Assembly: GCF_002810445.1 (NCBI RefSeq)
Contig: NZ_NEXS01000011.1
Location: 1-64,000 of the forward strand
DNA length: 64,000 nt
Direction: 5' to 3'
Source: Advenella sp. S44
GTDB lineage: Bacteria > Pseudomonadota > Gammaproteobacteria > Burkholderiales > Burkholderiaceae_B
Position 1 is the stretch's first letter. Every line of letters starts with the position of its first letter. Position numbers and translations under genes: made by a program. Shown here in pieces: positions 4,891 to 62,049 of this stretch. The notes under the pieces are model-generated. The model did no database searches and was not told the DNA's origin. It worked only from the letters and a program-made list of their open reading frames with translations.

Positions 4891-5138
4891 AGAGGACTGG
4901 AGCAGATCGGCAGGATAAATGGCAATCGCCCGGCACGGCAAACTCCTGTACATTCAGGGGCGCGCCGGGCTGGCAAAGAACAAAAGACAACAGGATGCAA
5001 AAACATATACGGATCTGAAAAACAACGCATTTATGATGAAAAGCACGATAAATACAAAACAGCTCAGCTAGAATAGCCTTCGGTGCAGCGTTTTTTCAGA
5101 ACCCCCCAACCCTGAACCAAACGCTTTTGACTACTCCC

Positions 5139-6068
5139 ATGAAAACAAAAGTACAAGCCTCCATGCCGCGCTTTGATTTGTTCACCTTGCAACTGGTCTT
5201 GGCCGTCCAAGCCACCGGCAGCGTTGCGCGTGCCGCTGAAAGCATGCACTTGACAGCGTCTGCCGTTAGCAAGCGGATATTGGAGCTGGAAGATCAACTT
5301 GGTACGGCAATACTGGAGCGCCATTCCCAGGGAGCACGTCTGAATCCGGCTGGCGTTGCACTCTCACGCCGGGCCCAGTCGATACTGAAGGAGTTTCACA
5401 GTCTTCAGGACGATATGGCCGACTTTACGAATGGCACGGCCGGAAGCATACGCTTGGCCTCCAATACATCGGGCCTGGCCTGTGGGCTTGCTGATCAGTT
5501 GGTTTCTTTCAACTGTAATTATCCGGATGTCAGGATATCGGTTCGCGAAGCCACCAGCATTGCCGTTGTGCAGGCGGTCGCCGAGGGCTGGGCCGATATT
5601 GGTATTGCCAGTGCCCAAACCGAACTGGGTGGACTCACGGCACGTCCATATCGGTCCACACCTTTGGTATTGGCGGTGCCAAAAGACCATCCGTTAAGTC
5701 AACGCAAGGCCGTTCTTTATGCGGATACATTGGCCTATCCGCATATTGGTCGCGCTGCCGACAGCGCGCTTGGACGCCTGGCCGGCGCTCCGCCAGCGGC
5801 CACGCCGCAAGAGGTTGCGCTGGACTCGCTGGTTACCAGTTTTTCTGCTGTGTTCTCGCTGGTGCGCGCCGGTGCCGGCGTAGCGGTGGTGCCGTTGAGT
5901 CCGACGCAGTTGATTACCGTGCCGGATATCGCACTGGTGCCGTTAAAAGACGCGTGGGCAAAGTTCGACCTGTGCCTGGTCTGCGACCCGGGGATCATCA
6001 TGTCGCCAGCCGCATCCCGCCTGCTGAATACACTGAGCAGCAGTACGGGAACGACAAAAGCAGACTAA
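5139..6068 (+). CDS. LysR family transcriptional regulator
   Basis: A 309-residue LysR-type regulator. The N-terminal winged helix includes TGSVARAAESMHLTASAVSKRI and the linker ILELEDQLGTAILER, followed by a periplasmic-binding-protein-like effector domain to the end. The ATG used here is four codons inside a possible TTG start; another ATG (MPRFDLF) follows 24 bases later. It is convergent with a Bug receptor gene whose stop codon abuts its own, so its direct target is uncertain. The Bug-PrpF operon and the amidase on the right are candidates. Confidence 0.87.
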   Translation: MKTKVQASMPRFDLFTLQLVLAVQATGSVARAAESMHLTASAVSKRILELEDQLGTAILERHSQGARLNPAGVALSRRAQSILKEFHSLQDDMADFTNGTAGSIRLASNTSGLACGLADQLVSFNCNYPDVRISVREATSIAVVQAVAEGWADIGIASAQTELGGLTARPYRSTPLVLAVPKDHPLSQRKAVLYADTLAYPHIGRAADSALGRLAGAPPAATPQEVALDSLVTSFSAVFSLVRAGAGVAVVPLSPTQLITVPDIALVPLKDAWAKFDLCLVCDPGIIMSPAASRLLNTLSSSTGTTKAD

Positions 6069-7043
6069 TCAACCTACGACAACGCCGGCGTCGTGAATGA
6101 CCTTGCTCCATTTCTTGCGGTCATTGGCGATCAAGTCCGAAAACGCGCTCGGCGAATCATACGCCGGCTCGAAACCGCTGCCGACAAGCCAGGCATTTGA
6201 CTCGGCGTCCTTAAAAAACTCGCCCATGGCCTGGTTCCAGCGGTCGATGGCCGCCTGTGGTGTGCCTGCAGGCGCGGCCACGCCCCACCATTCGTCGGCT
6301 GAGTAACCGGGTAGCGCGTCTTCCGCAACGGTAGGCAGATCCGGCAAGACGACCGAGCGCTGTTCACCAGTGGTGGCAAGCGCGCGCAAGGCACCCGATT
6401 TGATCGCTGGCAACGCCGCGCCAAGAATGGCGAACATCATGGAGATCTGCCCGCCCTGCAGGTCGACAAGCGCAGGAGAAGTGCCACGATAGGGAATATG
6501 CTGGATATCGATGTCTGCCATATTTTTGAACAGTTCGGCCGGCAAGTGGCCGGCGGCACCGTTACCTGCGGTGCCGAAGGTCAGGGTACCGGGTTCGCTT
6601 TTTGCCAGAGCGATGAGCTCCTTCATCGATTGCACTTGCAATGACGGGTTGACCACGACAACAAACACGGTCGAGGCAACGCGGCTGATCGGGCTAAATT
6701 GCGTGGCCGGGTCGTAGGACAGTTTGCGGTAAAGCTCGGGATTAATGGAACTGACGCCAGCCGTAGTCATCAGTAGCGTATGGCCATCCGGTTTCGAGGA
6801 GGCAACCTGGGCTGCGCCGATGCCGCCCCCTGCACCGGGTTTATTTTCGACAACGATCGGCACACCCCATTTATCGGCAACAAACATGGCCAGGCGACGG
6901 GCCAGGATATCTGTCCCGCCCCCGGCTGGAAACGGCACGATAAGCGTCACCGGACGCGCGGGATAGCTTGAAGCAAAGGCAGTCGGGAAAGCGAGTGTAC
7001 CTGCGGCGATCGAGCCGCTAAGAAGGAATTGGCGACGGTTCAT
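6069..7043 (-). CDS. Bug-family tripartite tricarboxylate receptor (TctC-like), periplasmic
   Basis: A 324-residue Bug receptor. The N-terminus carries a twin-arginine-like leader (RRQFLLSG followed by a hydrophobic stretch to AFAS), then the family core YPARPVTLIVPFPAGGGTD, the nucleation of the carboxylate-binding loop, and later TAGNGAAGHLPAELF and YRGTSPALVDLQGGQI. Bug proteins capture organic acids in the periplasm. Its start overlaps the stop of the PrpF gene (ATGA), so the two are co-translated. No TctAB membrane partner is adjacent; it must use one elsewhere or act in sensing. The ligand is probably an unsaturated or hydroxylated polycarboxylate, given the PrpF isomerase. Confidence 0.9.
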   Translation of the reverse strand: MNRRQFLLSGSIAAGTLAFPTAFASSYPARPVTLIVPFPAGGGTDILARRLAMFVADKWGVPIVVENKPGAGGGIGAAQVASSKPDGHTLLMTTAGVSSINPELYRKLSYDPATQFSPISRVASTVFVVVVNPSLQVQSMKELIALAKSEPGTLTFGTAGNGAAGHLPAELFKNMADIDIQHIPYRGTSPALVDLQGGQISMMFAILGAALPAIKSGALRALATTGEQRSVVLPDLPTVAEDALPGYSADEWWGVAAPAGTPQAAIDRWNQAMGEFFKDAESNAWLVGSGFEPAYDSPSAFSDLIANDRKKWSKVIHDAGVVVG

Positions 7044-8176
7044 GATGTGACTATCTCCTGAAGAATATTTTCCGGCGCCGGGACTAAGCTGGCATCCGGG
7101 ACGTAAACGGTCCCTTCAAACAGACGCCTGGCGGTACGCAGCAGACTGACGGCGCGTATGTCCGGATCGCCATTGGCGTCAGCACTATCGCCCTGTACAT
7201 CCACCTCAATACTTCCCTGCGGGTGCTCAATGCAGACGGGACCGGCTGTGTGCCGGGCAAAACGATGAGCGACAGAACCGGGTAGAAACGCGGCTACCCC
7301 CAGGCAAACCGCGCCGGTCACGGCAAATCCCGAATGGCATGTATAGGGCATGAAATAGCGGGCGGCCAGCGTCGCGTCGTTGCCGGCAGGTGTTGCCACC
7401 AGCGTCAGCTTGGGCATTTCAGAGCGCGATACATCGCCCAGGCCCATGGCGCGACCGGCAATACAGCGCAAATTTTCCACCTTTGCCAGCAGATCGGCAT
7501 TGGCATTGATCACCTCGGCTGGCTCATGCCCCGTCAGCCCGAATGCTTCGGCTGCGACAATGGCCATGGGTACGGCGGCATCCACGCAGCTCACTTCGAA
7601 GCCGTCCATTACATCGACAACGTGTCCGGTTGGCAGCAGTTTGCCCGTTTTGGCGCCGGCCATGTCTTCGAAGCGCAGCCAGACAGGCGCAGCCTGGCCC
7701 GGCACGCCATCGATGCGCGCATCGCCCTGGTACAGGGTGCGCCCATTATCAGTCTGTATCGTCGCGACGATGCGCTTGGCGGTATTAACATTGAATATTC
7801 GGACCGTGGTCGTCTTGCCTCGCGCTTTCACCAGACCCTGGTCAATGGCGTACGGACCCACGGCCGCCAGCATATTGCCACAGTTGACGTTGTAATCAAT
7901 CGTATTCTTGTGAACGCAGACCTGGGCAAACAAGTAATCGACATCCGCATCGGCGCGTTTGGACGGGGAGATAATCGCAATCTTGTTCACCAGCGGGTCC
8001 GGCCCGCCAATGCCATCGATACGTCTGGGCTCAAGCGCGCCCAAAACCCGCAGCAAGATGCGATCGCGCTGCTCGCCGGGCGGGGGCAGATCGGACGCCA
8101 GAAAAAACGGGCCCTTGGATGTGCCACCGCGCATAACAACGCAGGGCAAACCCAGCTGATCAGAAAATGTGTGCAT
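7040..8176 (-). CDS. PrpF-family isomerase (4-oxalomesaconate tautomerase / methylaconitate isomerase type)
   Basis: A 378-residue PrpF protein with the two-fold diaminopimelate-epimerase-like fold. Visible hallmarks are the N-terminal MRGGTSKGPFF, the DGIGGPDPLVNKIAI stretch, the catalytic cysteine region VNCGNMLAAVGPYA, and the second-half FMPYTCHSGFAVTGAVC. Characterised members move double bonds in unsaturated tricarboxylates: cis/trans-methylaconitate (PrpF) or keto/enol oxalomesaconate (GalD). It is the first gene of an operon with a Bug receptor, so an imported unsaturated polycarboxylate is a reasonable substrate. The exact substrate within the family is not decidable here. Confidence 0.87.
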   Translation of the reverse strand: MHTFSDQLGLPCVVMRGGTSKGPFFLASDLPPPGEQRDRILLRVLGALEPRRIDGIGGPDPLVNKIAIISPSKRADADVDYLFAQVCVHKNTIDYNVNCGNMLAAVGPYAIDQGLVKARGKTTTVRIFNVNTAKRIVATIQTDNGRTLYQGDARIDGVPGQAAPVWLRFEDMAGAKTGKLLPTGHVVDVMDGFEVSCVDAAVPMAIVAAEAFGLTGHEPAEVINANADLLAKVENLRCIAGRAMGLGDVSRSEMPKLTLVATPAGNDATLAARYFMPYTCHSGFAVTGAVCLGVAAFLPGSVAHRFARHTAGPVCIEHPQGSIEVDVQGDSADANGDPDIRAVSLLRTARRLFEGTVYVPDASLVPAPENILQEIVTS

Positions 8177-8302
8177 GGAAGATGCCTCCTATGTGAAGCA
8201 TTCTCGCCCAACTTGCGCTGCCGTGACAAACAATCATTCGGAACGGCAGCGCTTCCAAAAAGTCACGCCGCGGCCGGTCCGTTTTGCAGCATACTCCAGA
8301 CG

Positions 8303-9592
8303 ATGAATGCGAACAAACCCTACGAAGACCTGCGCGATCCTGACATATATAGTCAATGGCTAGAACGCCTGGGCCAGTGCGAATCTGCCGTGCAAGCCTG
8401 GGCCTGGTTTAACCAGGACGTTGTTGCCGATTCGCTTAAAGGACTGAAATCGCAGGCTCATGAAGGGCTGCTTTCAGGACTGGCGGTGGGAATCAAGGAC
8501 ATTATCAACGTTGCCGGCATGCCGACCGGCAATGGCGTGAAACACAGTACGCCATTGCCATGCGCAGGCGCTGATGCCGACTGCGTAATCCTTTTACGGG
8601 AAGCGGGGGCAGTGCCTGTCGGCAAAACCGTCACCGCTGAAATGGCATACGCCCACCCCGGCGCTACAAGAAACCCCTGGGATGTAGCCCATACGCCTGG
8701 CGGCTCGTCCAGCGGATCGGCTGCAGCCGTGGCATGCGGGATGGTAGCGGCAGCACTCGGAACCCAGACCGGGGGATCAATCATCCGCCCCGCCGCATAT
8801 TGCGGCGCCGTTGGATTCAAGCCAACCTATGACCTTGTCTCCATGACAGGCATAACGGGCGTCAGCCCACGCCTGGACACACTGGGCTGGTTTACCACAA
8901 ATGTGAGACTGGCCGATCGTATGGCCCAGGTGCTGCTGCCACACCAGCCGGCACCCTCTGCCTTCAAGCTGAACGCGTTGCGGGTCGCTCGCGTGGATGC
9001 AATACATGCCGGCCCTGATGCCGAGACTGTGAGCGCGATGGACATGGCATGCATCACTTTGAAAGAAAACGGCGCCAACGTTTCGTGTCTGAATATGGAA
9101 GACGAATGGAACACGCTGACCACAGCACATAAAACGATCATGTTTTACGAAATGGCTCACATCATCCAGACGGCACATTCGGCAAACTGGCGACACTTCA
9201 GTGCAACGCTGCGTGCTACTTGCGAACAGGGCTCTCGCATTTCAACGGCCAACTATCAGCTTGCGCTGGATGCGGCAAAATCTTGTCAGGCGCGCTTGCT
9301 GCATAAGCTCGCGGATACAGATGTGATATTGACGCCCAGCGCAAAAGGGCCTGCGCCCCGTGGATTGGAAAATACGGGAGAATCCACATTCAATCGAATC
9401 TGGACGCTGCTTGGCTGGCCCGCCATACATTTGCCTATCACCCAGTCACGCGAGGGGCTGCCACTGGGCGTACAACTTATCGGAAAGCCGGCGACCGACA
9501 GGCCGTTGTTATTGATCGCTGATCAGATACATAAATTGATTGATCGTCGAACAACAACAACAACAACAACAACAACAACCTGCGCAGGGTGA
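8303..9592 (+). CDS. Amidase signature family hydrolase with C-terminal poly-Thr tail
   Basis: A 429-residue amidase signature enzyme. The Ser-cis-Ser-Lys triad is visible: Lys65 in GIKDI, Ser135 in GGSSSGS and Ser159 in GTQTGGSI. The open frame continues far upstream, but that part is antisense to the PrpF gene; the ATG chosen starts a normal amidase N-terminus. The protein ends in a run of ten threonines encoded by a trinucleotide repeat, then CAG, which is not a family feature. It is transcribed away from the PrpF-Bug pair, so it may hydrolyse an amide of the same acid. Substrate unknown. Confidence 0.87.
   Translation: MNANKPYEDLRDPDIYSQWLERLGQCESAVQAWAWFNQDVVADSLKGLKSQAHEGLLSGLAVGIKDIINVAGMPTGNGVKHSTPLPCAGADADCVILLREAGAVPVGKTVTAEMAYAHPGATRNPWDVAHTPGGSSSGSAAAVACGMVAAALGTQTGGSIIRPAAYCGAVGFKPTYDLVSMTGITGVSPRLDTLGWFTTNVRLADRMAQVLLPHQPAPSAFKLNALRVARVDAIHAGPDAETVSAMDMACITLKENGANVSCLNMEDEWNTLTTAHKTIMFYEMAHIIQTAHSANWRHFSATLRATCEQGSRISTANYQLALDAAKSCQARLLHKLADTDVILTPSAKGPAPRGLENTGESTFNRIWTLLGWPAIHLPITQSREGLPLGVQLIGKPATDRPLLLIADQIHKLIDRRTTTTTTTTTTCAG
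9551..9580 (+). repeat. (ACA)n trinucleotide microsatellite in amidase 3' end
   Basis: Nine consecutive ACA codons followed by ACC, all threonine in the amidase frame. On the other strand the same bases read as a leucine run at the end of the antitoxin remnant. A perfect 9-unit trinucleotide tract is uncommon in proteobacterial genes and prone to slippage, which would change tail length without breaking the frame. Confidence 0.9.
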
Positions 9593-9734
9593 TCGCGCCA
9601 GGCAAGCCAGTCGCTTCAGAGATCTGAGCTATACCTTGCGCCTTCGCAACCTCTTTCACGCGTGCCGAGAACAGCTCGTCGTCGTCCTCTTCAATATTGC
9701 TTTCCGCTGTGGGCGAACGGCGTAAGGAAATCAT
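9590..9734 (-). pseudogene. Remnant of addiction-module antidote (HigA/HTH type)
   Basis: The reverse strand encodes DELFSARVKEVAKAQGIAQ followed by ISEATGLP. This matches the core of small XRE-type addiction-module antidote proteins, whose typical phrase is AAL-x-D-(I/V)-A-(K/R)-A-(K/R)-G-(M/I)-(T/A)-Q-(I/L)-A-x-x-(T/A)-GL. The normal continuation (SRESLYKAL...) is missing: the frame runs instead into the leucine run antisense to the amidase tail. No toxin gene is nearby. I read this as a truncated, decayed antitoxin; chance resemblance is possible because the matching part is only about 28 residues. Confidence 0.45.
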
Positions 9735-9803
9735 CAGCCCCCTTGGCTATGTTCGAGCAAGCACTCGAAACAGAACAACCCCGATGCATCCACAAATCCA
9801 ACC

Positions 9804-10568
9804 TTACGATCTCGGTCGATACCCGAGCAAAGAAGAAACTCTATCGCACGCCTCGATGATCGCAGGGGCCAGGTTGTGCATAACTCTGGGTTTAAGCCGG
9901 TCCGCTGGACCTGACACGCCTAATGCAGCAACAACTTTACCGGAGCCATCGCGAATTGGTCCGGCAACGCCGCAGACCTGTTCGCGCCATTCTCCGATAT
10001 TAATTGCGAATCCCTGCACGCGTACCCGGTCCAACTCGTTTTCCAATTGTTCCGAACGCACAATACTTTTGGATGTGTATTTGGCCAGTGCGATCTTAAC
10101 GGATTCTATCGTGGCCGGATCGGACCAGGCGAGCTGAGCCTTGCCCGTTGCCACACACTGTGCTGGCGCGCGTCCTCCCACGGTCGTGTAAGCCCGAACC
10201 GGTTGAGGACTGTCAATTTTTGCAAGATACAATACCTCGATGCCCTCCAACGAAGACAAATGCACCGTTTCTGACGTTGCTGCGGCCAGTTCCTTCATGA
10301 AAGGATCTGCAACGTGCCGCACGTCTAATTTGCCAAAAACATGCGAACCCAATTCCCATAATTTCATTGTCAATTCGTAGCGGCCGGTGCTGGCCACGTT
10401 TCGCGCAAATCCCTGGTACACCAGACCTTGCAGCAGTCTGTGTACATTGCTTTTGGTAAGTTCCAGCTCCTTGGCCAGTTCTGTCACGCCACAGGGGCGC
10501 TCGCTTCTCGCAAGTGTTTCGAGCAGAACCAGGCCTTTCAAGAAAGTTTTATCCATATGTTGAACCAT
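9804..10568 (-). CDS. IclR family transcriptional regulator
   Basis: A 254-residue IclR regulator. The N-terminal winged helix spans about residues 8-65 (GVTELAKELELTKSNVHRLL is the HTH). The C-terminal GAF-like effector domain carries the typical GGRAPAQCVATGKAQLAW, and the VCGVAGPIRDGSGKVVAALGVSGP region. A second in-frame ATG four codons later is an alternative start. It diverges from the tctCBA/epimerase/lyase operon across a 264-bp intergenic region, the usual arrangement for an IclR repressor or activator of a catabolic operon. The effector is probably the transported acid or an intermediate. Confidence 0.88.
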   Translation of the reverse strand: MVQHMDKTFLKGLVLLETLARSERPCGVTELAKELELTKSNVHRLLQGLVYQGFARNVASTGRYELTMKLWELGSHVFGKLDVRHVADPFMKELAAATSETVHLSSLEGIEVLYLAKIDSPQPVRAYTTVGGRAPAQCVATGKAQLAWSDPATIESVKIALAKYTSKSIVRSEQLENELDRVRVQGFAINIGEWREQVCGVAGPIRDGSGKVVAALGVSGPADRLKPRVMHNLAPAIIEACDRVSSLLGYRPRS

Positions 10569-10832
10569 ATAACAAATTCATCTTATTTTATATAGTGTAA
10601 TCAAAATTCAAATATTAGAACAACAATTATTATTCTCATTCATCTGCGCTCAGCCGGTGCCTTATCTCTGAAAGACCCAGCGCCTCACCGCTCGCTCGTG
10701 CCACAACGATTTGTTTTGCCAGGCATTGGGAAAACCCTTATAGATAATTATTGACACGTTCAATAGGTCAAGTATATAGTGTTTTTATTACAAAGAAGAA
10801 CGGCGTTCTAAATAGTAAAACATGAGGAAGAC
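10569..10832. promoter_or_regulatory. Divergent promoter region with sigma70-like promoter for tctCBA operon
   Basis: AT-rich spacer between the IclR gene and the transporter operon. On the plus strand TTGACA (10751-10756) and TATAGT (10775-10780) are 18 bp apart, a good sigma70 match about 50 bp before tctC, which has a GAGGAAG ribosome site. A direct repeat CCATAT-N6-CCATAT lies over the IclR start (10552-10569) and could be part of its own control. Confidence 0.5.
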
Positions 10833-11828
10833 ATGAAAAATCACGAAACTTTATGGCCCGGACGATGGCTTGTACCCGCAACGGTCGTTTTAACCTGCCT
10901 GATCGGAGCGAGCGCACAAGCGGCAGAGGATTCTTTTCCGAACAAACCAATTACCATTGTGGTACATACTGGCGCGGGATCATCAACGGATATATTTGCA
11001 AGAGAATTGGCGCAAGGCGCTCGCAAAGTATTTGGAAAACCGGTTGTTGTCGTCAATAGGCCAGGTGGAAGCGGTGCAACGCAAATGGCATTTATCAAAT
11101 CCGCCCCACCTGATGGCTATACCGTAGGAGTCAATACTGCCTCGCATTTGACTGCAATGCAGTCAAACTTGAAGGGTGTGTACAAATGGCAAGACTTTTC
11201 CTGGATAACGTTGAATCAACTGGATCCATATGTCACAGTCGTGGCAGCAGACAGCCCATACAAAACGTTGAAAGATCTGGTCGAAGGAGGCAAGAAAGAA
11301 GGAGTCAATCTCAAAATAGGTGGATTTGGCACGGTTGGTGCAGCTCACAATATTGGTTTTAATCTGCTTGCAGACAAGGCAAATATGCCATTTACATGGG
11401 TCAGTTACACTGGCGGCCCTCAGGCAATGACCGCGCTGCTTGGCAAACATATTGATGCCGTCAACACTAATCCAGGCCCGGCCTTGCAATTTGCTGCAGC
11501 CGGCCGTGTGCGCGTTCTGGGCATCCTTGATGATAAACGGGCAGAGTCGTTGCCGGACACGCCCACCTACGCCGAGGCCGGATATCCCGTGGATACTTCC
11601 TGGAAGCAGATCCGCGGCATATTTGGTCCGAAGGATATCCCCTTGGAAATTCAGAAAAAACTCGCCGACGGCTTCTTCAAAGCCATGCAAACACCGGCCT
11701 TTCAGAAATACATGAAAGACACTGCGCAGATTGCAGGCGATGAGGGGCCAGAACAATACCCCGCCTATATTGAAAAAATAGATAGTGTCGGCAGCGAGTG
11801 GCTGAAAAAATTGGGACTGGCCAAATGA
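10833..11828 (+). CDS. tctC: Tripartite tricarboxylate transporter receptor (TctC/Bug)
   Basis: A 331-residue periplasmic receptor with a signal peptide (hydrophobic LVPATVVLTCLIGASAQAA, cleavage near residue 31). The mature protein opens FPNKPITIVVHTGAGSSTD, the Bug carboxylate-binding region, followed by KSAPPDGYTVGVNT and YTGGPQAMTALLGKHID. Unlike the other five Bug genes of the window it is directly followed by tctB and tctA, with an ATGA overlap, so it is the receptor of a complete TTT system. Co-transcribed MmgE/PrpD and lyase genes suggest that the ligand is a C4-derived polycarboxylate such as iminodisuccinate. Confidence 0.92.
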   Translation: MKNHETLWPGRWLVPATVVLTCLIGASAQAAEDSFPNKPITIVVHTGAGSSTDIFARELAQGARKVFGKPVVVVNRPGGSGATQMAFIKSAPPDGYTVGVNTASHLTAMQSNLKGVYKWQDFSWITLNQLDPYVTVVAADSPYKTLKDLVEGGKKEGVNLKIGGFGTVGAAHNIGFNLLADKANMPFTWVSYTGGPQAMTALLGKHIDAVNTNPGPALQFAAAGRVRVLGILDDKRAESLPDTPTYAEAGYPVDTSWKQIRGIFGPKDIPLEIQKKLADGFFKAMQTPAFQKYMKDTAQIAGDEGPEQYPAYIEKIDSVGSEWLKKLGLAK

Positions 11829-12301
11829 CTGTCGGCTCAACAACGGACGATACACTCGCCATGAATACGTGGCTCTGCGAAATGAAATCTACCCGGGTGG
11901 TTGCAATTCTGTGCCTGCTCGCTTTCGGCTGGATAGCCTGGTTGAGCCACGGCTTTCCGCCGCCCCTCAATCCAGTAGACGTCGGACCAGGAAAAGTCCC
12001 AACGCTCATCGCATACCTCGGCATGATCTGCAGCGTTGTTCTGTTTGTACAGGCAGGCCGAATAACCACCAGAATTGAACTGCGTCGCCCTGCTGCGGTG
12101 GCATCGGGCATGCTGGTGATCGCCGGATATGTGCTTTTGATCCCCTTTGTTGGATTCTATATCACATCTGTATTCGCGGTGCCTGCATTGATGCTGGTCG
12201 GTGGCGAGCGACGCCCATTGCGCCTGCTTCTCTCTTCTACGGGATTTGTCCTCTTTATTTATCTGTGTTTCCAGTTGCTGCTGGGCGTCGAATTTCCATA
12301 G
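11825..12301 (+). CDS. tctB: Tripartite tricarboxylate transporter small membrane subunit (TctB)
   Basis: A 158-residue membrane protein with about four hydrophobic segments, the size and layout of TctB. The pattern is an N-terminal segment VVAILCLLAFGWIAW, a conserved-looking PVDVGPGKVPTLIA loop, then segments ending in IYLCFQLLLGVEFP. The start overlaps the tctC stop (ATGA), giving translational coupling. TctB is the poorly conserved small subunit that pairs with TctA in the inner membrane; the assignment rests as much on position between tctC and tctA as on sequence. Confidence 0.87.
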   Translation: MTVGSTTDDTLAMNTWLCEMKSTRVVAILCLLAFGWIAWLSHGFPPPLNPVDVGPGKVPTLIAYLGMICSVVLFVQAGRITTRIELRRPAAVASGMLVIAGYVLLIPFVGFYITSVFAVPALMLVGGERRPLRLLLSSTGFVLFIYLCFQLLLGVEFP

Positions 12302-12311
12302 GAGAGTCATT

Positions 12312-13808
12312 GTGTTTGCTGATCTAATGAATGGATTCGCACTGGTCCTGCACCCATACGTCTTGCTGGCTCTGATGGGTGGCACCCTCGTCGGCTACCT
12401 GATCGGGGCGATGCCCGGACTGGGGCCTAGCCTTGGCGTAGCGCTCCTCGTGCCTTTTACTTACGGCATTGATCCTGTCATAGCCATGGTTGCGCTAGTC
12501 AGTTTATATATGGCCGCAGAATATGGTGGCGCGATCACCGCCATTTTATTGAATACGCCCGGCACGGCCGCTGCAGTAGCTACGGCCTGGGACGGTTATC
12601 CCATGGCGAAAAAGGGCGAAGCGGGCTTTGCTTTGCATATTTCAATTATCAGTTCCGGCATTGGTGCACTAATCAGCGCATTCCTGTTGATTGCAACCGC
12701 TATTCCATTGTCAGAACTTGCTCTTCAGTTCGGTCCTACAGAATATTGCGCACTTGGAGTCTTCGGATTGAGCCTGGTCAGCAGCCTAGGTGGCGTATCT
12801 CCACTAAGAGGTTTGTTGGCGCTGTGTATCGGGGTCGCTTTTGCCGTTATCGGCATGGATCCTGAGAATGGTACACCTCGATTCGCATTTACGCCTGAAC
12901 TCTTTGACGGTATTCCACTGGTGCCGGCACTGCTCGGCTTATATGCAATTTCAGAAGCGCTATTCATGCTTGAAGGACAGGATGCTAACGCCCCGGCCAT
13001 CAAGGTCAGTAAAGTTTGGTCGCTGCCGTGGTCCCGATACCGGAATCTATGGATAACGATCCTTCGTGGTTCGGGCATCGGATACATTATTGGTGTTATA
13101 CCAGGAGCCGGCGCATCAATTGCCAGTCTCATCTCTTATAACGAGACAAAACGTGCGTCTCATGACCCGGCATCATTTGGCGAGGGTAATCCCAAAGGAG
13201 TGGCCGCTTCGGAATCGGCCAATAATGCAGCTGTGTCCGGTGCAATGGCTCCTCTATTGGCACTTGGCATCCCTGGATCAGCTACAGCGGCAATTCTGAT
13301 TGGCGCGCTGATGATACAGGGAATCCAGCCCGGACCTCTTTTGTTCGTCAGGAATCCAGAGATTCCTTACTCGATTTTTGCTTCTTTGATTATTGGCGTA
13401 CCTCTGATGGTCATTGTTGGGTTATTTGGAGCGAGGCTTTGGGTTCGAGTGATCGATATTCCCGCTTCGCTGCTTGCGGCAGTTGTCACCGCGATTTCCA
13501 TTGTGGGTGCCTATGCATCAGAAAACTCCATGTTTCCCGTCTATGTCACGCTTTTCTTCGGTTTTCTTGGCTATGTTTTGCGCAAGGTGAATATACCATT
13601 GGCACCAATCGTACTTGCATTGGTACTCTTGCCGATGGCCGAGACAAACTATCGACAGGCACTGGTTGTAGCAGAGGGTAATCATATGATTTTTCTTCAA
13701 CAACCGATTACCGTCGTCCTGTTAGTGTTGGCGCTGCTATCGTTCCTGGTTCCGCTGATCAGAAACCGTCGTCCGATCCCTGCCAGTAAAGCAGACTCAA
13801 AGAAATGA
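12312..13808 (+). CDS. tctA: Tripartite tricarboxylate transporter large membrane subunit (TctA)
   Basis: A 498-residue, 12-segment inner-membrane permease. TctA hallmarks are clear: GYLIGAMPGLGPSLGVALLVPF near the N-terminus, the AAEYGGAITAILLNTPGTAAAVATAWDGYPMA motif region, and the repeat of the same pattern in the second half (GVIPGAGASIASLISYNE). The start is a GTG preceded by AGGAGAG at proper distance; a longer open frame overlapping tctB is not needed. The stop overlaps the next ATG (ATGA). It imports the acid captured by TctC using the proton or sodium gradient. Confidence 0.94.
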   Translation: MFADLMNGFALVLHPYVLLALMGGTLVGYLIGAMPGLGPSLGVALLVPFTYGIDPVIAMVALVSLYMAAEYGGAITAILLNTPGTAAAVATAWDGYPMAKKGEAGFALHISIISSGIGALISAFLLIATAIPLSELALQFGPTEYCALGVFGLSLVSSLGGVSPLRGLLALCIGVAFAVIGMDPENGTPRFAFTPELFDGIPLVPALLGLYAISEALFMLEGQDANAPAIKVSKVWSLPWSRYRNLWITILRGSGIGYIIGVIPGAGASIASLISYNETKRASHDPASFGEGNPKGVAASESANNAAVSGAMAPLLALGIPGSATAAILIGALMIQGIQPGPLLFVRNPEIPYSIFASLIIGVPLMVIVGLFGARLWVRVIDIPASLLAAVVTAISIVGAYASENSMFPVYVTLFFGFLGYVLRKVNIPLAPIVLALVLLPMAETNYRQALVVAEGNHMIFLQQPITVVLLVLALLSFLVPLIRNRRPIPASKADSKK

Positions 13809-15202
13809 ACGATGACAAGCTGAAAAACACATTGACCCTGAAGCTGGCGGAATGGGCATGCGCAGTCGACGAATCCCAGTTACCTTCGGACGTGTTGAAG
13901 ATCGCCAGCCATTCTTTATTGGATTGGTATACGATGGTGCTGGTGGGCTGGAACGAGCCGGCGGTTGCAAACCTGCGTCGATATCTGAATGACGAACCTG
14001 GTGCACCACAAGCCACCCTGCTCGGCAGTAATTCCCTGGCATCGTTGACACATGCTGCGCTCATCAACGGAATTTCCGGCCATGTTCTGGATTTTGATGA
14101 CGCCCATTTACCATCGCGCGTACACCCGTCGGTTCCCTTGTGGCCGGCCATTCTCGCCCTATGCGAACACCAAGGGTTGTCCGGAAAGCAGGCTTTGGCC
14201 GCATTTGTCATCGGCGTAGAAATTCAGACTCGACTTGCTGCCCTCATGGGAGAAAGTCACTATCGGCTTGGCTGGCACAATACCGCCACACTAGGCAGTT
14301 TTGGCGCTACCGCTGCCCTTGGCTGGTTACGTAAACTCACCCCGATACAAATGTGTCATGCCTTTGGTATCACTGCCAGCCAGACCGGCGGCTTAAGATC
14401 ATCATTTGGCACGTCGTGCAAACCGCTACATGCCGGCCGTGCGGCAGCAAACGGGCTTTTCGCTACCGGATTGGCAAAACACGCTTTTGACGCGCAATCC
14501 GCTGTCTTTGATGTCGCCGACGGCTTCCCGGCACTCTATGCCGATGAGACTTTTCCGGATGCTGTCATCCAGAAAGATGGCAACTGGGATATCCGTCAGG
14601 TAATTTTCAAATATCACGCCTCATGCTACGGAACGCAAGCTCCAGTGGAGGCTGCGCTCAAGTTCAATAGGCCAGATTTTGCGTCCGTCAGTTCGGTGCG
14701 AGTTGGTGTAGAGACACAATACCTGTCTGTATGCAATATTCAGACACCAAAGACCGCGGCACAAGCCCGATTCAGCATACGCCATATGGTGGCCTTGGCC
14801 CTCGAAGGCTTCAATACCGCCAGCCAACACGCATTCTCTTCAGAATGCCTGACGGATCCGCAGATCGCTGCGTGGCGGGAACGCATCGCGGTCTATGGCG
14901 ATGCAGCAATCGCCCGCGCTAACTCCAGTATCGATGTTGAATTCACAGATGGGACACAACAGCGTGTCACCGTCGATGCTAGCCGTCCAGAAAGTAATCT
15001 TGAACGACAGCAGCACCGACTCTGTGAAAAATCGGCTGCGCTACTGCAGGATCTATACATTGAGGGCAGTGAAAAAATTTTGCATGATCGCATTCTTGGT
15101 ATCGACAAGGCGCCTGATCTGCATGGGTGGATGGAAGACTTTCGCGTATGGGAAAGCCAGCATCGCCGTAACCAACATGAACACACCAATACAGGAGAAT
15201 AG
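13805..15202 (+). CDS. MmgE/PrpD family protein, candidate iminodisuccinate epimerase
   Basis: A 465-residue MmgE/PrpD protein. Family marks are the HVLDFDDAHLPSRVHPSVPLWPAILAL stretch, GWHNTATLGSFGATAALGWLR, and FGTSCKPLHAGRAAANGLFATGLA. Known members include 2-methylcitrate dehydratase, cis-aconitate decarboxylase and iminodisuccinate epimerase. Here it is translationally coupled to tctA (ATGA) and followed two bases later by a fumarase/ASL-type lyase. In Agrobacterium tumefaciens BY6, iminodisuccinate is degraded by exactly an MmgE/PrpD epimerase and a C-N lyase yielding fumarate and aspartate. That makes the epimerase role my preferred inference, but other polycarboxylate isomerase or dehydratase roles remain open. 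Confidence 0.8.
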   Translation: MNDDKLKNTLTLKLAEWACAVDESQLPSDVLKIASHSLLDWYTMVLVGWNEPAVANLRRYLNDEPGAPQATLLGSNSLASLTHAALINGISGHVLDFDDAHLPSRVHPSVPLWPAILALCEHQGLSGKQALAAFVIGVEIQTRLAALMGESHYRLGWHNTATLGSFGATAALGWLRKLTPIQMCHAFGITASQTGGLRSSFGTSCKPLHAGRAAANGLFATGLAKHAFDAQSAVFDVADGFPALYADETFPDAVIQKDGNWDIRQVIFKYHASCYGTQAPVEAALKFNRPDFASVSSVRVGVETQYLSVCNIQTPKTAAQARFSIRHMVALALEGFNTASQHAFSSECLTDPQIAAWRERIAVYGDAAIARANSSIDVEFTDGTQQRVTVDASRPESNLERQQHRLCEKSAALLQDLYIEGSEKILHDRILGIDKAPDLHGWMEDFRVWESQHRRNQHEHTNTGE

Positions 15203-15204
15203 AA

Positions 15205-16554
15205 ATGGGAGCTTATGTCATTGATAGTGCATTATTTCGGGATCAGTTCGGTACCGATACAATGCGTGAGTTGTTCAGCGATGAAACCACGGTACAGCGC
15301 TGGCTGGATGTAGAAGCCGCTTTGGCAAAAGTGCAGGTAGAGCTGGGAATTATTCCCAAGGAGGCCGGAGAAGAAATTCAAAGGAAAAGCAAGGTTGAAA
15401 ATATCGATCTTCCAGAGCTGAAGCGGGAAATGGACCGAACGGCTCATCCTATTGTTCCATTGCTAAGGGCAATGAAAAAAGCATGCGAGGGAGAAGCCGG
15501 TGAGTTCATCCACTGGGGCGCAACCACGCAGGACATAATGGATACAGGAACCATTCTTCAGGTGCGCGATGCGTTAGACGAGATAGAAGCTGCATATCGC
15601 GAACTTTATGCAAACACCCGTCGCCTGGCCGAAACCTATCGAGACCAGGTCATGGTAGGACGCAGTCATGGACAACATGCGCTGCCCATTACCTTCGGTT
15701 TTAAAGCGGCAGGCTGGGCCGAAGAGCTCAGGCGTAATTTCAAAAGATTGAAACAGATGCGGGAGCGTGTGCTTGTTGGGCAGTTTTCCGGGGCAGTAGG
15801 CACACTGGCTGCATTGGGCGACCAGGGCCTAACCGTACAGCGTAGACTTTTTGATGAGCTTGGACTCGAGTGCCCGACCATCACGTGGCATACATCGCGA
15901 GACAATATTGCAGAATTGATATGTGTCCTCGCTATCGCCTGCGGCACCGCCGGAAAAATTGCACATGAGATATTCAGCCTGCAGAAGACGGATGTCGCCG
16001 AACTGGAAGAACCGTTTGCGCCTGGCAAGGTTGGCAGCAGTACGATGCCACACAAGCGAAACCCGCCTGTTTGTGAGGGAGTCATAGCGCTTACGCGTGT
16101 GGTTCGGACGACTGTTCCACTGGCGATCGAGGCTATTGTTGCCGATCACGAACGTGATAAGGTTGTGCTGCAGACTGAAAGAGAGTTCATCGGAAAAGTG
16201 TTTAACATGACACATGCCGCTGTCAAAAAAATGATTTTTGTGACTGGCCAATTGAGCGTGCGAACAGAAAATATGGAAAAAAATCTTTTTGCCCAAAATG
16301 GACTGTTAATGTCCGAAGCCGTCATGATGGGATTGAGTGATGCATTGGGCAGACAGGAAGCACACGACATCGTATACCGGATTTGCATGGATGTTTTCGA
16401 AAAAGGTGGGTCACTGAAAGAGGCATTGCTGGCGGACCCCGGTGTATCCGGGCGGCTAAAAGAAGCCGATATTGAACGAATGCTCGAGCCGCATGGTTAT
16501 ATCGGACATGCGGGAGACTTTGTGGACCAGGTGCTCGCAAACTCGCTGGACTGA
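15205..16554 (+). CDS. Fumarase/aspartase-superfamily lyase (adenylosuccinate-lyase type), candidate iminodisuccinate C-N lyase
   Basis: A 449-residue cytosolic lyase of the ASL/fumarase superfamily. The signature loop GSSTMPHKRNP is intact, as are the HWGATTQDIMDTG and GRSHGQHALPITFG regions that carry the catalytic His and substrate-binding residues. Members cleave C-N or C-O bonds to release fumarate, or act as carboxymuconate cycloisomerases. Purine biosynthesis (PurB) is unlikely because the gene is last in a transporter operon, right behind the MmgE/PrpD gene with an AGGAGA ribosome site. Cleavage of an imported aspartate-succinate conjugate fits best. A strong terminator follows. Confidence 0.85.
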   Translation: MGAYVIDSALFRDQFGTDTMRELFSDETTVQRWLDVEAALAKVQVELGIIPKEAGEEIQRKSKVENIDLPELKREMDRTAHPIVPLLRAMKKACEGEAGEFIHWGATTQDIMDTGTILQVRDALDEIEAAYRELYANTRRLAETYRDQVMVGRSHGQHALPITFGFKAAGWAEELRRNFKRLKQMRERVLVGQFSGAVGTLAALGDQGLTVQRRLFDELGLECPTITWHTSRDNIAELICVLAIACGTAGKIAHEIFSLQKTDVAELEEPFAPGKVGSSTMPHKRNPPVCEGVIALTRVVRTTVPLAIEAIVADHERDKVVLQTEREFIGKVFNMTHAAVKKMIFVTGQLSVRTENMEKNLFAQNGLLMSEAVMMGLSDALGRQEAHDIVYRICMDVFEKGGSLKEALLADPGVSGRLKEADIERMLEPHGYIGHAGDFVDQVLANSLD

Positions 16555-16559
16555 CTAAA

Positions 16560-16590
16560 CTTGATGGGCCGCAAAAGGCCCATCAAGACT
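16560..16590. terminator. Bidirectional rho-independent terminator
   Basis: A perfect 11-bp stem (CTTGATGGGCC / GGCCCATCAAG) with a 6-base loop GCAAAA, followed by ACTTTT. It lies between the convergent lyase and AhpD-like genes and probably ends both. Confidence 0.85.
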
Positions 16591-16598
16591 TTTACGCC

Positions 16599-16940
16599 TT
16601 ACTTATCAAACTGACCAAACGCTTCCATCGCCCGAACAGAGTACACATAAGCAGCACCGGCATTAAGCGCAATTGCCGTGCCAAGCGCTTCGCTCAATTC
16701 AGCTTCAGTAGCGCCTGCTTGTCGGGCGGCTGCAGCATGGGAAGAGATGCATCCGTCACAGCGAGTTGTTACAGCAACGGCGAGGGAAATGAGTTCCCTT
16801 GTTTTGGCATCCAGCGCTGATCCACTTGCCTGCGCTTTATTGAGCCCTTGATAAGCCTCAACGACCGCCGGGTTGGCTTGGGCAAATGTCTTGGCTGATT
16901 GGCGTAAGTTGGATAATTGATCTTTCCAGTTATTAAGCAT
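16599..16940 (-). CDS. Carboxymuconolactone decarboxylase / AhpD-like protein
   Basis: A 113-residue all-helical CMD-family protein. The AhpD-type redox motif is visible as C61-x-x-C64-x-x-x-H68 (CDGCISSH), preceded by LDAKTRELISLAVAV and followed by QAGATEAELSEALGTAI. The pair of cysteines favours a peroxidase or disulfide-reductase role over aromatic lactone decarboxylation. It diverges from the CoA-transferase/dioxygenase operon across a 129-bp gap, so a link to thiol metabolism is possible. That link is inference. Confidence 0.85.
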   Translation of the reverse strand: MLNNWKDQLSNLRQSAKTFAQANPAVVEAYQGLNKAQASGSALDAKTRELISLAVAVTTRCDGCISSHAAAARQAGATEAELSEALGTAIALNAGAAYVYSVRAMEAFGQFDK

Positions 16941-17069
16941 CTATTTATCTCCAAAAAAAGATTCGTTCTACTATTTAGAACGACGTTTTGTATTTCGGGA
17001 AGTTAATGGTACACTTTCGTAAAACTCGTTGCAAGCTTTAAGAAAAAAATTAATTGACATAGGTGCACA

Positions 17070-18248
17070 ATGAAGGAAATTGACACGCAAGATCTACCGC
17101 TGGCAGGAATCAAAATCATAGAGTTTTGTTCAGTCGCTGCCGGCCCATTCTGTGGCATGCTGCTCGCCGACATGGGTGCGGAAGTAATTAAAGTAGAGCC
17201 GCCAGACGGTGACACACTTAGACAATGGCCGCCCCTCAATAACGGTTACAGTGAAAATTTTGCATCGCTCAATCGAAATAAAATGTCTGTACAGCTTAAT
17301 TTGAAAAATTCGGACGACCTTCGTCTGGCTCGACAGATGATTTTAAGTTCGGACGTCGTAATCGAAAATAATCGACCTGGCGTCATGAAGCGATTAGGAC
17401 TGAGTTATGAAACGTTCTCCGAGGAAAAGCCCGCTCTTATTTATTGCTCTATCTCTGCATACGGCCAAAGTGGTCCTCGATCAACTGAGGGGGGATTCGA
17501 CCTTACCATGCAGGCTGCAGCGGGCGTCATGAGCGTGACGGGCGAGGAAAACGGTGCCCCAGCCAAATGCGGAGTGCCAATCTCCGATTTTTCGTCTGGA
17601 CTGTATGCTGCTTTTGCCATTGCTTCAACATTAGCAAGTGTACGCGCTGGTGGCACAGGCAAACATATTGACGTCCCCATGTTTGGCTGTACTTTGGGCG
17701 TGGCTGCCTTGCAGACCAGCGAGTATTTTGGCACCGGCCTCAATCCACGCCGCCTCGGCTCTGCACATCCCCGAAATGCGCCATACCAGGCATTTAGTGC
17801 TAAAGACGGTTATTTCGCCATAGCAGCCGGAAACCAGAAACTCTGGTCAGCTGTCTGCGAGGTAGTACAAATACCTGAATTGGAGCAGGACCCACGGTTC
17901 GCCACTACCTCATTACGCGCCCAAAACCAGATAGCGCTCAAGGAGATGCTTGAGCGGTCTTTTAATCTTCAATCTGTGGACCACTGGATTAACGCTTTCA
18001 AAGAAGCTGGCGTACCACATGCACATATTAATGATTACGCGTCTGCTTTGAACGATCCGCAAGTTGCACATATGAACTGGGTGCGAGCGGTTAATTTACC
18101 GGATGGCACTGAAATAAAAACGTTTGCGTCACCACTTATGCTGAGTGGCGAAGGACTACCGATTCGTATTAATCCGCCCGCGTTAGGCGCACATACCAAT
18201 CTTATACGATCACAATTTTCAACAACTAAAGGAGACATTGAGCAATGA
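17070..18248 (+). CDS. Class III (CaiB/BaiF) CoA-transferase, candidate 3-sulfinopropionate CoA-transferase
   Basis: A 392-residue family III CoA-transferase. The N-terminal LAGIKIIEFCSVAAGPFCGMLLADMGAEVIKVEPP is typical, and the catalytic aspartate is D173 in GVPISDFSSGLYAAF. It is coupled by ATGA overlap to a thiol dioxygenase with the residues of 3-mercaptopropionate dioxygenase. In Variovorax and Advenella, 3-mercaptopropionate is oxidised to 3-sulfinopropionate, which a class III CoA-transferase (Act) activates using succinyl-CoA. That precedent makes Act the best hypothesis. The third step, a sulfinopropionyl-CoA desulfinase, is not in the window. Confidence 0.8.
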   Translation: MKEIDTQDLPLAGIKIIEFCSVAAGPFCGMLLADMGAEVIKVEPPDGDTLRQWPPLNNGYSENFASLNRNKMSVQLNLKNSDDLRLARQMILSSDVVIENNRPGVMKRLGLSYETFSEEKPALIYCSISAYGQSGPRSTEGGFDLTMQAAAGVMSVTGEENGAPAKCGVPISDFSSGLYAAFAIASTLASVRAGGTGKHIDVPMFGCTLGVAALQTSEYFGTGLNPRRLGSAHPRNAPYQAFSAKDGYFAIAAGNQKLWSAVCEVVQIPELEQDPRFATTSLRAQNQIALKEMLERSFNLQSVDHWINAFKEAGVPHAHINDYASALNDPQVAHMNWVRAVNLPDGTEIKTFASPLMLSGEGLPIRINPPALGAHTNLIRSQFSTTKGDIEQ

Positions 18249-18835
18249 GTTACAACAAACTCCAGACAACAGTAGAGGCGCTCAGCCGCCTCGTGGAACG
18301 CAAAGGGCTGACAGAAGCTCAGGCACTTGAGGAATCCAGAAAGCTAATTGCTGATCTGGTCAAAACAGACGACTGGCTGCCTGATCAGATGGCGCAGCCA
18401 CATCCAGATTATTATCGGCAATATCTCTTGTATGGAGATCCGCAAGACAGATTCTCGTTAGTGAGTTTTGTGTGGGGCCCCGGACAAAAGACTCCCGTTC
18501 ACGACCACACCGTTTGGGGTGTAATCGGTATGCTCCGAGGCGCGGAAGTCGACCAGCCCTTCCGTCGAACAGAGAATGGACTGGAGCCGACGGGACCGCA
18601 ACACACACTGCAACCGGGTGATACTGCTTGTGTATCTCCTACTATTGGCGATATTCATCGGGTGAGTAACGCCTACGCTGATCAGGTCTCAATAAGTATT
18701 CATTTGTACGGCGGTAATATCGGTCGTATTCAACGAAGCGTGTATGATCCCGTGACAGGACAACCCAAGCAATTCATCTCAGGTTATTCCAATGCTCTTG
18801 CTCCCAATCTCTGGGTCGAAACCCCACAATCCTGA
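18245..18835 (+). CDS. mdo: Cysteine-dioxygenase-family thiol dioxygenase, probable 3-mercaptopropionate dioxygenase
   Basis: A 196-residue cupin of the cysteine dioxygenase family. The non-haem iron ligands are H86 and H88 (PVHDHTVWGV) and H138 (GDIHRVSN). The outer-sphere triad S151-x-H153-x-Y155 (SIHLY) is spaced exactly as the Ser-His-Tyr triad of bacterial 3-mercaptopropionate dioxygenases, and the C-terminal FISGYSN is intact. These enzymes convert 3-mercaptopropionate (or cysteine, less well) to the sulfinic acid with O2 in the cytosol. The start overlaps the CoA-transferase stop. Together they would oxidise and then activate the thiol acid. Cysteine dioxygenase activity cannot be excluded. 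Confidence 0.83.
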   Translation: MSYNKLQTTVEALSRLVERKGLTEAQALEESRKLIADLVKTDDWLPDQMAQPHPDYYRQYLLYGDPQDRFSLVSFVWGPGQKTPVHDHTVWGVIGMLRGAEVDQPFRRTENGLEPTGPQHTLQPGDTACVSPTIGDIHRVSNAYADQVSISIHLYGGNIGRIQRSVYDPVTGQPKQFISGYSNALAPNLWVETPQS

Positions 18836-57901: not shown

Positions 57902-58087
57902 ATGTCAACAAGCATTGCTTTGAGTACGCACTTTGAAGTATTCATACGCCAACAGGTAGAGTCGGGCCGTTATAACAACGCCCGCGAAGTCGTGCGCGCC
58001 GGTTTGCGCGTGCTAGAAGATCAGGAACGCCTCAACCAGGCCAAACTTGCCGGGCTTCGCCAGCCTATCGCCACTGGCGTGCAATAA
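57902..58087 (+). CDS. Orphan ParD-like antitoxin, C-terminally short
   Basis: A 61-residue ribbon-helix-helix protein of ParD type: LSTHFEVFIRQQVESGRYNNAREVVRAGLRVLEDQE matches the DNA-binding domain nearly perfectly. ParD antitoxins are usually 80-90 residues with a C-terminal toxin-binding tail; here the tail stops at RQPIATGVQ and no parE follows. Its last 23 bases overlap the convergent fumarase gene. It may be a remnant of a lost parDE pair or a stand-alone antitoxin or regulator. No good ribosome site was seen. Confidence 0.7.
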   Translation: MSTSIALSTHFEVFIRQQVESGRYNNAREVVRAGLRVLEDQERLNQAKLAGLRQPIATGVQ

Positions 58088-59579: not shown

Positions 59580-59582
59580 ATT

Positions 59583-60557: not shown

Positions 60558-60577
60558 AACAGGTTCCTTATTGGCGT

Positions 60578-61939: not shown

Positions 61940-61955
61940 AAGAGGTTATTTCCAT

Positions 61956-61997
61956 TATGTACGAACATATTAATATAATATATTATGTACGTACATA
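61956..61997. promoter_or_regulatory. Twin palindromic operators between GntR gene and lyase operon
   Basis: TATGTACGAACATA (61956-61969) and the perfect palindrome TATGTACGTACATA (61984-61997) are 28 bp apart, and both are embedded in AT...TATTAA flanks. They lie in the 110-bp divergent spacer, as expected for a GntR/HutC repressor dimer pair. Confidence 0.65.
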
Positions 61998-62049
61998 TTA
62001 AATATCGGTAATAACCCTCACTCGCTCAATTGCCCGTATAATTTCGAGC

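Follow-up and report, generated by a model that had tools for sequence, protein, structure and literature searches.

Gene content and extent of the cluster

A compact operon of five genes at positions 10833-16554 (plus strand) of Advenella sp. S44 raises the question of which compound its products import and cleave. The window, i.e., the whole stretch of 64,000 nucleotides of contig NZ_NEXS01000011.1 that was analyzed, encodes in this operon, according to a Pfam scan and gene calls, the subunits TctC, TctB, and TctA of a tripartite tricarboxylate (TTT) transporter, an MmgE/PrpD-family protein, and an ASL-type lyase. This tight order had been described in an initial annotation and was confirmed by Pfam for all five genes; the substrate proposed there, iminodisuccinate (IDS), is probably wrong. 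A pathway for a sulphur compound is more likely than one for IDS, and we consider it reasonably probable that the cluster is a regulon for the use of an S-(2-succino) thiol thioether, i.e., of succinate bound via sulphur to a small acid. S-(2-succino) thiols are the kind of adduct that fumarate forms with thiols. Furthermore, the cluster is larger than initially annotated, since genes of an AhpD-like protein, a CaiB-type CoA-transferase, and a thiol dioxygenase belong with the operon, to which they are tied by operator-like sites and synteny. The genes are as follows.

9804-10568, minus strand: IclR-family regulator, divergent from the operon (PF01614 and PF09339)
10833-11828, plus strand: TctC, periplasmic receptor of the TTT transporter (PF03401, 141 bits)
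11825-12301, plus strand: TctB, small membrane subunit (PF07331, 67 bits), in ATGA overlap with tctC
12312-13808, plus strand: TctA, large membrane subunit (PF01970, 489 bits), start GTG at 12312 or ATG at 12327
13805-15202, plus strand: MmgE/PrpD-family protein, predicted to epimerise a 2-substituted succinate at C2 (PF03972 and PF19305; His/Tyr pair and Arg; tree)
15205-16554, plus strand: ASL-superfamily lyase, predicted fumarate-releasing C-S lyase (PF00206 and PF10397; PurB-type His residues; own clade)
16599-16940, minus strand: AhpD-like protein, carboxymuconolactone decarboxylase/alkylhydroperoxidase domain (PF02627 and TIGR00778 above cut-off)
17070-18248, plus strand: CaiB/BaiF (family III) CoA-transferase (PF02515)
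18245-18835, plus strand: thiol dioxygenase of the 3-mercaptopropionate dioxygenase (MDO) clade (best PDB matches)

TctA, TctB, and TctC all score above the Pfam cut-offs and constitute a full TTT transporter set. As noted initially, the five operon genes are joined by overlaps or small gaps: ATGA overlaps at TctC/TctB and TctA/MmgE, a gap of 2 bp at MmgE/lyase, and a gap of 10 or 25 bp at TctB/TctA.

Microsynteny of the lyase orthologues

Scanning the named genomes with the lyase alignment resulted in 31 loci, 20 of which were considered orthologous (lyase identity of at least 60%), the other 11 showing lower identity; neighbouring genes were matched at an identity of at least 40%, or 35% in case of IclR and TctA. 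An MDO gene is situated within 2.3 kb of the lyase gene in 15 of the 20 orthologous loci, in various gene orders, and in 14 of the 16 orthologous loci that have 10 kb on both sides. Of the other partners, IclR is close to the lyase gene in 13 of the 20 loci (within 4.7 kb), CaiB in 11 and MmgE in 10 (each within 3 kb), and AhpD in 10 (within 150 bp). None of these five partners was detected in the 11 loci with a lyase identity below 60%, of which only four have 10 kb on both sides. As a control within the genus, six paralogous Advenella lyases (E <= 1e-100) are located on contigs other than that of MDO or at a distance of at least 40 kb.

The cluster is distributed over several proteobacterial families. 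The nearest named relative locus is that of A. kashmirensis W13003 with a lyase identity of 92%, where the lyase gene is directly followed by MDO. Alongside the same genes, A. kashmirensis has an IclR of 85% identity, and Candidimonas and Achromobacter sp. HZ34 have one of 70% identity. MDO precedes the lyase gene in Achromobacter, Candidimonas, and Roseomonas, Cupriavidus and Pigmentiphaga display the order CaiB-MDO-crotonase-Bug-AhpD-lyase, and Polynucleobacter the order lyase-MmgE-MDO. A. vinelandii has the order TctB-TctA-MmgE-lyase-Bug, with a TctA unlike that of the window (37%). On a plasmid of Cupriavidus campinensis, which is outside the 31-locus count, IclR, CaiB, MDO, AhpD, and MmgE are all present. 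Among the titles and beginnings of abstracts listed in literature searches, one of which was directed at aconitate, none linked this lyase with MDO.

In three metagenome-assembled genomes of the Rhodospirillales (L074, L075, and L081), lyases of 53-54% identity are located near genes that, judged by eye, resemble those of methionine salvage; the MDO and MmgE partners are absent.

Operator-like sites and boundaries

The neighbouring operons share a 23-bp operator-like repeat, which is listed here together with the other predicted sites.

10751-10780, plus strand: sigma-70-like promoter TTGACA-18-TATAGT before tctC, 11 of 12 consensus positions, the best of the region
10799-10821, plus strand: operator-like copy 1 (23-bp repeat), just downstream of the -10 hexamer and before tctC
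16560-16587, no strand assigned: terminator-like hairpin where the lyase and AhpD genes converge (-22 kcal/mol, z -6.3)
16965-16987, minus strand: operator-like copy 2 in the AhpD/CaiB intergenic region, core palindrome TCGTTCTA-N5-TAGAACGA with perfect arms of 8 bp

The 23-bp sequence occurs twice in the window and in none of 100 shuffles. At up to three mismatches over 22 bases, exactly two sites were found in the 4.3-Mb assembly, and none with the reversed control. A looser pattern, GTTCYNAATANTRGAAC with up to two mismatches, was built from the sites of the window and of A. kashmirensis. In 14 other loci it gave 12 matches in eight (L054, L055, L056, L057, L059, L062, L066, and L105) and was absent from six (L058, L067, L073, L080, L083, and L103), at a chance expectation of 0 to 0.2 per 22 kb in simulations for this 14-locus set. 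Since intergenic sequences of L055 and L056, as well as the match in L066, had already been inspected before the pattern was written, the sites in these three loci are not independent of it. Considering all 31 named loci, 17 matches were obtained, all within the 20 orthologous loci (391 kb), where they are spread over 13; the 11 others (148 kb) have none. The 13 loci with the pattern are exactly those with an IclR match.

Except for the site in L054, which lies inside the 5' end of the called tctC, all 17 sites are intergenic; probably the tctC start of L054 was called too far upstream. The sites are located before MDO in L055 and L056, before IclR in L066, and between IclR and CaiB in nine Cupriavidus- and Pigmentiphaga-type loci, which were unseen before the pattern was written and are closely related to each other. 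Two sites precede the MmgE gene of Achromobacter sp. HZ34 (L056), which lies 2.9 kb from the lyase gene. We infer that IclR binds the operator-like sites and that the two neighbouring operons are probably one regulon under its control.

In the region as a whole, sigma-70-like sites are no more frequent than in shuffles. The hairpin after the lyase stop codon has a perfect stem of 11 bp, and none of 200 shuffles was equally stable. Due to only four T after the stem it was not listed by the terminator scan, which requires five. The initial description as a strong terminator is thus fair with regard to the stem and weak with regard to the tail.

ASL-type lyase

All 16 orthologous lyase rows retain the two PurB-type His residues as well as the GSSTMPHKRNP loop, and the orthologues form a single clade (100/99). 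The two His residues are presumably the acid/base catalytic His residues of fumarate-releasing lyases. The tree was computed without the characterised S-(2-succino) lyases (2SL) of E. italicus and D. dadantii and the lyase of strain BY6; the 2SL type is represented in it by lyases of 2SL-type gene clusters. Both His residues are absent from the PcaB row, the PcaB-like row, and both Tad1-type rows; in the 3c8t-type lyases, including the second lyase of the window (60578-61939), the first His is missing in four of four rows. PcaB was therefore rejected as an assignment, as was trans-aconitate decarboxylase, since the window lyase has His and Ser-His-Gly in place of the Tad1 pattern (Tyr, Ser-Asn). 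With regard to PurB the outcome was mixed: the window lyase passes the cut-off of TIGR00928 but reaches only 96.7 bits for NF006764 (cut-off 446). As the housekeeping copy it was dismissed, because the genome has a separate PurB gene at C8:1306547, which passes NF006764 with 727.6 bits.

The yxeQ gene presumably encodes a member of the MmgE/PrpD family. According to PMC9706529, yxeQ is among the genes of the yxe locus, and a lyase-class-I 2SL occurs in 27 of 102 yxe loci, mostly replacing yxeK, so that the initial statement that IDS degradation is the only known pathway pairing an MmgE/PrpD protein with a C-N lyase was too narrow. The cluster of the window resembles this 2SL/yxe (scm) pathway for S-(2-succino)cysteine in the lyase-class-I type of fumarate release from an S-succino thiol, in an MmgE/PrpD-family gene (there presumably yxeQ), and in the dedicated transporter, but has a TTT instead of an ABC importer, and a thiol dioxygenase and CoA-transferase instead of the acetylation enzymes: no N-acetyltransferase or deacetylase of the 2SL type is present among the ten scanned window proteins (7040-18835). 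Clusters of the 2SL type were found on two Pantoea plasmids and a Niallia plasmid, comprising the lyase, a GNAT acetyltransferase, amino-acid ABC transporter genes, and an amidohydrolase. Their lyases (rows L125, L129, and L131) share both His residues and the HERD motif with the window lyase.

Second among the NCBIfam models matched by the window lyase is that of XcbD, which we take to be a C-S bond-forming enzyme, with a score of 468.6 bits that stays under the cut-off. The gene Xaut_5054 of a Xanthobacter plasmid, here taken as XcbD, is annotated only as a fumarate lyase; its product shares both PurB-type His residues and HERD with the window lyase. Like the ranking of the XcbD model and the residues shared with the 2SL-type lyases, this speaks for the use of an S-(2-succino) thioether. 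The rank of the XcbD model and the report that 2SL can run in reverse (PMC9706529) also agree with a lyase that forms a C-S bond in the manner of XcbD, or one for which a sulfonated or hydroxylated succinate loses another leaving group; MDO would then act on a different thiol. We regard such a reading as unlikely, since the importer and epimerase genes in the lyase operon suggest the breakdown of an outside compound, and the Xanthobacter lyase is only 35% identical and placed on a long branch.

A related lyase-MmgE pair of Proteus mirabilis (L130) is situated beside genes of DcuC, cystathionine beta-lyase, and 3-mercaptopyruvate sulfurtransferase. Its MmgE lacks the Arg residue described in the next section and its lyase the second His, so that this Arg is not a marker of all lyase-MmgE pairs. 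Possibly, the Proteus pair represents a separate route for S-succino thiols.

MmgE/PrpD-family protein

The closest solved relatives of the MmgE/PrpD protein are bsIRG1 (1.5e-53) and the IDS epimerase (1.5e-50), which match about equally well. The IDS epimerase follows a two-base mechanism with His99 and Tyr145, and R100 of bsIRG1 is treated as an active-site residue (PMC7347537); for bsIRG1 a different function is considered probable in PMC12290011. An alignment of 43 proteins included 11 lyase-linked ones, i.e., that of the window and ten others, several of which stem from closely related Cupriavidus. The His/Tyr pair is kept in all 11, as is the Arg two residues before the His, corresponding to R100. 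The same Arg occurs in five of five bsIRG1-type proteins and in the IDS epimerase, and in none of the remaining 26 (PrpD-like, methylsuccinate type, mouse decarboxylase, and unassigned proteins, one being the poor fragment L005). In case of A. kashmirensis MmgE, an apparent stop codon is the normal end of a shorter gene according to the gene call. A 2-methylcitrate dehydratase was rejected on the basis of NF042438 (44.8 bits versus a cut-off of 950).

In a tree of 42 rows, from which L005 was dropped, the 11 lyase-linked proteins form one clade (99/100). Approximately unbiased (AU) tests rejected uniting this clade with the IDS epimerase (p 4.7e-6) or with the IDS epimerase plus the bsIRG1 type (p 0.003), with the caveats that they were run after the tree had been seen and that the IDS epimerase (a fragment of BY6) is on a long branch. 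The active-site His/Tyr and Arg are shared with the characterised enzyme; membership in the same clade is rejected. Judged by its sequence, the protein thus resembles an epimerase that acts on a substituted succinate at C2, but one outside the IDS epimerase clade.

These data bear directly on IDS, or another N-linked aminopolycarboxylate, as substrate, in which case the MmgE protein would be an IDS epimerase and the lyase a C-N lyase yielding fumarate and aspartate. The near-equal match to the solved IDS epimerase, the shared active-site residues, and a lyase type that suits C-N chemistry speak for it, and the cluster resembles the pathway of Agrobacterium tumefaciens BY6 in its MmgE/PrpD-lyase pair. 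It differs from the latter in the MmgE clade, the TTT importer, IclR, and the thiol dioxygenase. The conserved partner in 15 of 20 orthologous loci is this dioxygenase, which is not needed for an N-linked substrate; together with the CoA-transferase, both linked to the operon through operator-like sites and gene neighbourhood, it would be left without a role. Moreover, IDS is a man-made chelator, which fits poorly with a cluster found across several proteobacterial families. Thus we consider IDS an improbable substrate.

Sister to the lyase-linked clade is a group that contains the MmgE of a methylsuccinate-type cluster (98/98), a placement judged by a Tistrella cluster of that type. As in the (S)-(R)-methylsuccinate isomerase (PMC12290011), an MmgE/PrpD isomerase would act at C2 of a substituted succinate, and the substrate might be methylsuccinate or another carbon-branched dicarboxylate. 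Nevertheless, this assignment has little probability in our view: the methylsuccinate-type MmgE has Gln at the active-site position where all 11 lyase-linked proteins have Arg, the neighbouring genes differ, neither acyl-CoA dehydrogenase nor MaoC nor CoA ester lyase occurs among the ten scanned window proteins, and MDO and the lyase would be unexplained.

The bsIRG1-type genes adjoin LLM flavin monooxygenase genes in all three annotated plasmid loci examined out of 99 matched records (Pantoea, Roseomonas, and Rhizobium), and amino-acid ABC transporter genes are also found alongside. These loci resemble the S-succinocysteine (yxe) operon described in PMC9706529, which likewise speaks for the use of an S-(2-succino) thioether, and from the length and the neighbours of its relatives, bsIRG1 would correspond to YxeQ. 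When 274 genomes from the class to which A. vinelandii belongs were searched with a bsIRG1 fragment, without a positive control, no match was obtained at E <= 1e-60; a fragment of the IDS epimerase gave two matches of 34-35% identity at E <= 1e-55 in 398 genomes of the phylum. On a plasmid of Rhizobium daejeonense (L118), an operon TctB-TctA-TctC-MmgE-TauE/SafE exporter-MmgE was observed, the first MmgE of which branches weakly with the IDS epimerase.

Thiol dioxygenase and possible fate of the predicted sulfinate

The best PDB matches of the dioxygenase are 4qma (4e-66) and 6xb9 (5e-66), both deposited as cysteine dioxygenase type I, followed by 3uss/4tlf (1.5e-61) and 4wvz (3e-60), deposited as 3-mercaptopropionate dioxygenase. 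By eye, 6xb9 corresponds to the gene of A. vinelandii in L106, which we take to be a characterised MDO. Considerably weaker matches were obtained for mercaptosuccinate dioxygenase (1e-10), which was rejected as an assignment of this cupin against 4e-66 to 3e-60 for the MDO-type structures, and for the mammalian-type cysteine dioxygenase type 1 (8e-7). A Gln is located 27 residues before the HDH motif, presumably the mark of Gln-type thiol dioxygenases. MDO enzymes are named for 3-mercaptopropionate; to our knowledge, the in vivo substrates of the bacterial enzymes are often unclear.

In A. mimigardefordensis DPN7, a member of the same genus, MDO is part of the DTDP pathway (PMC5373536). The cluster of the window resembles this 3-mercaptopropionate/DTDP catabolism in MDO (58% identical) and a family III CoA-transferase; unlike the window, the DPN7 stretch contains no recognised lyase or MmgE and includes the desulfinase Acd. 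In a locus without a lyase match (L103; its genome, G347, was taken as DPN7 from gene order), MDO is accompanied by matches to the AhpD-like protein (71%), a Bug receptor, and IclR, and by eye by genes resembling those of an acyl-CoA synthetase, a crotonase, and an enolase-superfamily protein. Perhaps the thiol is freed in a different way there. A crotonase gene follows MDO in L062, L105, and, by eye, in other relatives; its product may act there.

Proposed pathway

With the His/Tyr pair and Arg of the MmgE protein and both PurB-type His residues of the lyase, the initial view of an epimerase-type MmgE/PrpD protein, a fumarate-releasing lyase, and a TTT importer beside IclR as one unit is retained. 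Gene content, operator-like sites, synteny, active-site residues, and trees together suggest the following reactions. The TTT transporter would import the S-(2-succino) thioether, and the MmgE/PrpD protein would epimerise the sulphur-bearing carbon of the succino group, a step that is plausible since several stereoisomers arise when the adduct forms and the lyase would accept only one of them. The lyase would then beta-eliminate the C-S bond to yield fumarate and the thiol, the MDO-type dioxygenase would oxidise the thiol to the sulfinate, and the CaiB CoA-transferase would activate the sulfinate for further breakdown. As to the thiol, 3-mercaptopropionate is our leading guess, followed by cysteine. 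That the regulon is dedicated to S-(2-succino)-3-mercaptopropionate, with import, epimerisation by a thioether-succinate epimerase, C-S cleavage, sulfinate formation, and CoA activation under one IclR regulator, is a tentative and rather doubtful proposal; if true, it would suggest a function for YxeQ of the yxe operon.

Several observations weigh against the use of an S-(2-succino) thioether. PurB (TIGR00928) is the sole curated NCBIfam model whose cut-off the window lyase passes (362.8 versus 326.2); this cut-off is also passed by the Niallia and Proteus lyase relatives outside a purine context. The 2SL-type lyases are 37-39% identical to the window lyase and branch elsewhere in the lyase tree. 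As the lyase-linked MmgE clade is nearer to the methylsuccinate isomerase than to yxe-type or IDS epimerases, the shared Arg may be convergent. No MmgE gene was found near the lyase gene in 10 of the 20 orthologous loci. MDO is not located near the lyase gene in A. vinelandii, Crenalkalicoccus, and a cut Zoogloeaceae contig, all three genomes having it elsewhere, and it was not detected in the genome of L084 at E <= 1e-10. A lyase of 78% identity in G361, outside the 31-locus count, has none of the partner genes, including MDO, in 18.5 kb. Candidimonas has a further lyase, belonging to another branch (42%), 1.4 kb from the same MDO. No match to Acd, the desulfinase encoded in the A. mimigardefordensis cluster, was obtained in the genome of the window at E <= 1e-60, and the CaiB protein is only 33% identical to the CoA-transferase of that cluster, so that the later sulfinate steps must differ. 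Finally, the crotonase is not linked to the cluster in the genome of the window, where its best match (42%) is at C6:332918.

Very improbable is an aconitate/itaconate route with import of trans-aconitate by the TTT transporter, a trans-aconitate decarboxylase as lyase, and CaiB as itaconate CoA-transferase. In its favour, Ustilago Tad1 ranks second among the solved relatives of the lyase (2.4e-92), a 41% identical relative in Bradyrhizobium sp. CB82 is situated in an itaconate-type cluster, and some TTT systems carry tricarboxylates. However, the two His residues kept in the window lyase are missing from Tad1 and from the CB82 lyase, which belong to a separate clade, neither MaoC nor CoA ester lyase was found among the ten scanned window proteins or recognised by eye in the orthologous loci inspected, and MDO would be unexplained. 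The CB82 lyase itself, encoded on a plasmid (L134) in an operon DctA-MaoC-CaiB-CoA ester lyase-lyase, has the active-site pattern of Ustilago Tad1 and groups with it (100/100); it is a candidate bacterial trans-aconitate decarboxylase that would feed itaconate breakdown.

If the proposed use of S-(2-succino) thioethers is right, the cluster would give free-living bacteria a complete route for obtaining carbon and sulphur from thiol-fumarate adducts, one that differs from the route known for S-(2-succino)cysteine, in which acetylation, cleavage, and deacetylation follow each other. Some bacterial MDO enzymes would thereby be given a physiological role. The proposal would furthermore assign an epimerase function to part of the large, mostly uncharacterised MmgE/PrpD family and to YxeQ.

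Adjacent clusters in the window

Two further clusters were observed in the window. Just upstream of the regulon (5127-9592), genes of a LysR-like regulator, a Bug receptor, a 4-oxalomesaconate tautomerase (NF033377 above cut-off), and an amidase-like protein form a separate catabolic cluster. At 58065-62790, the second ASL-superfamily lyase, of the 3c8t type, is part of another fumarate-producing cluster, in which it is accompanied by a Bug receptor gene and, by eye, by an apparent class I fumarase gene (58065-59579) and a divergent GntR-like gene.

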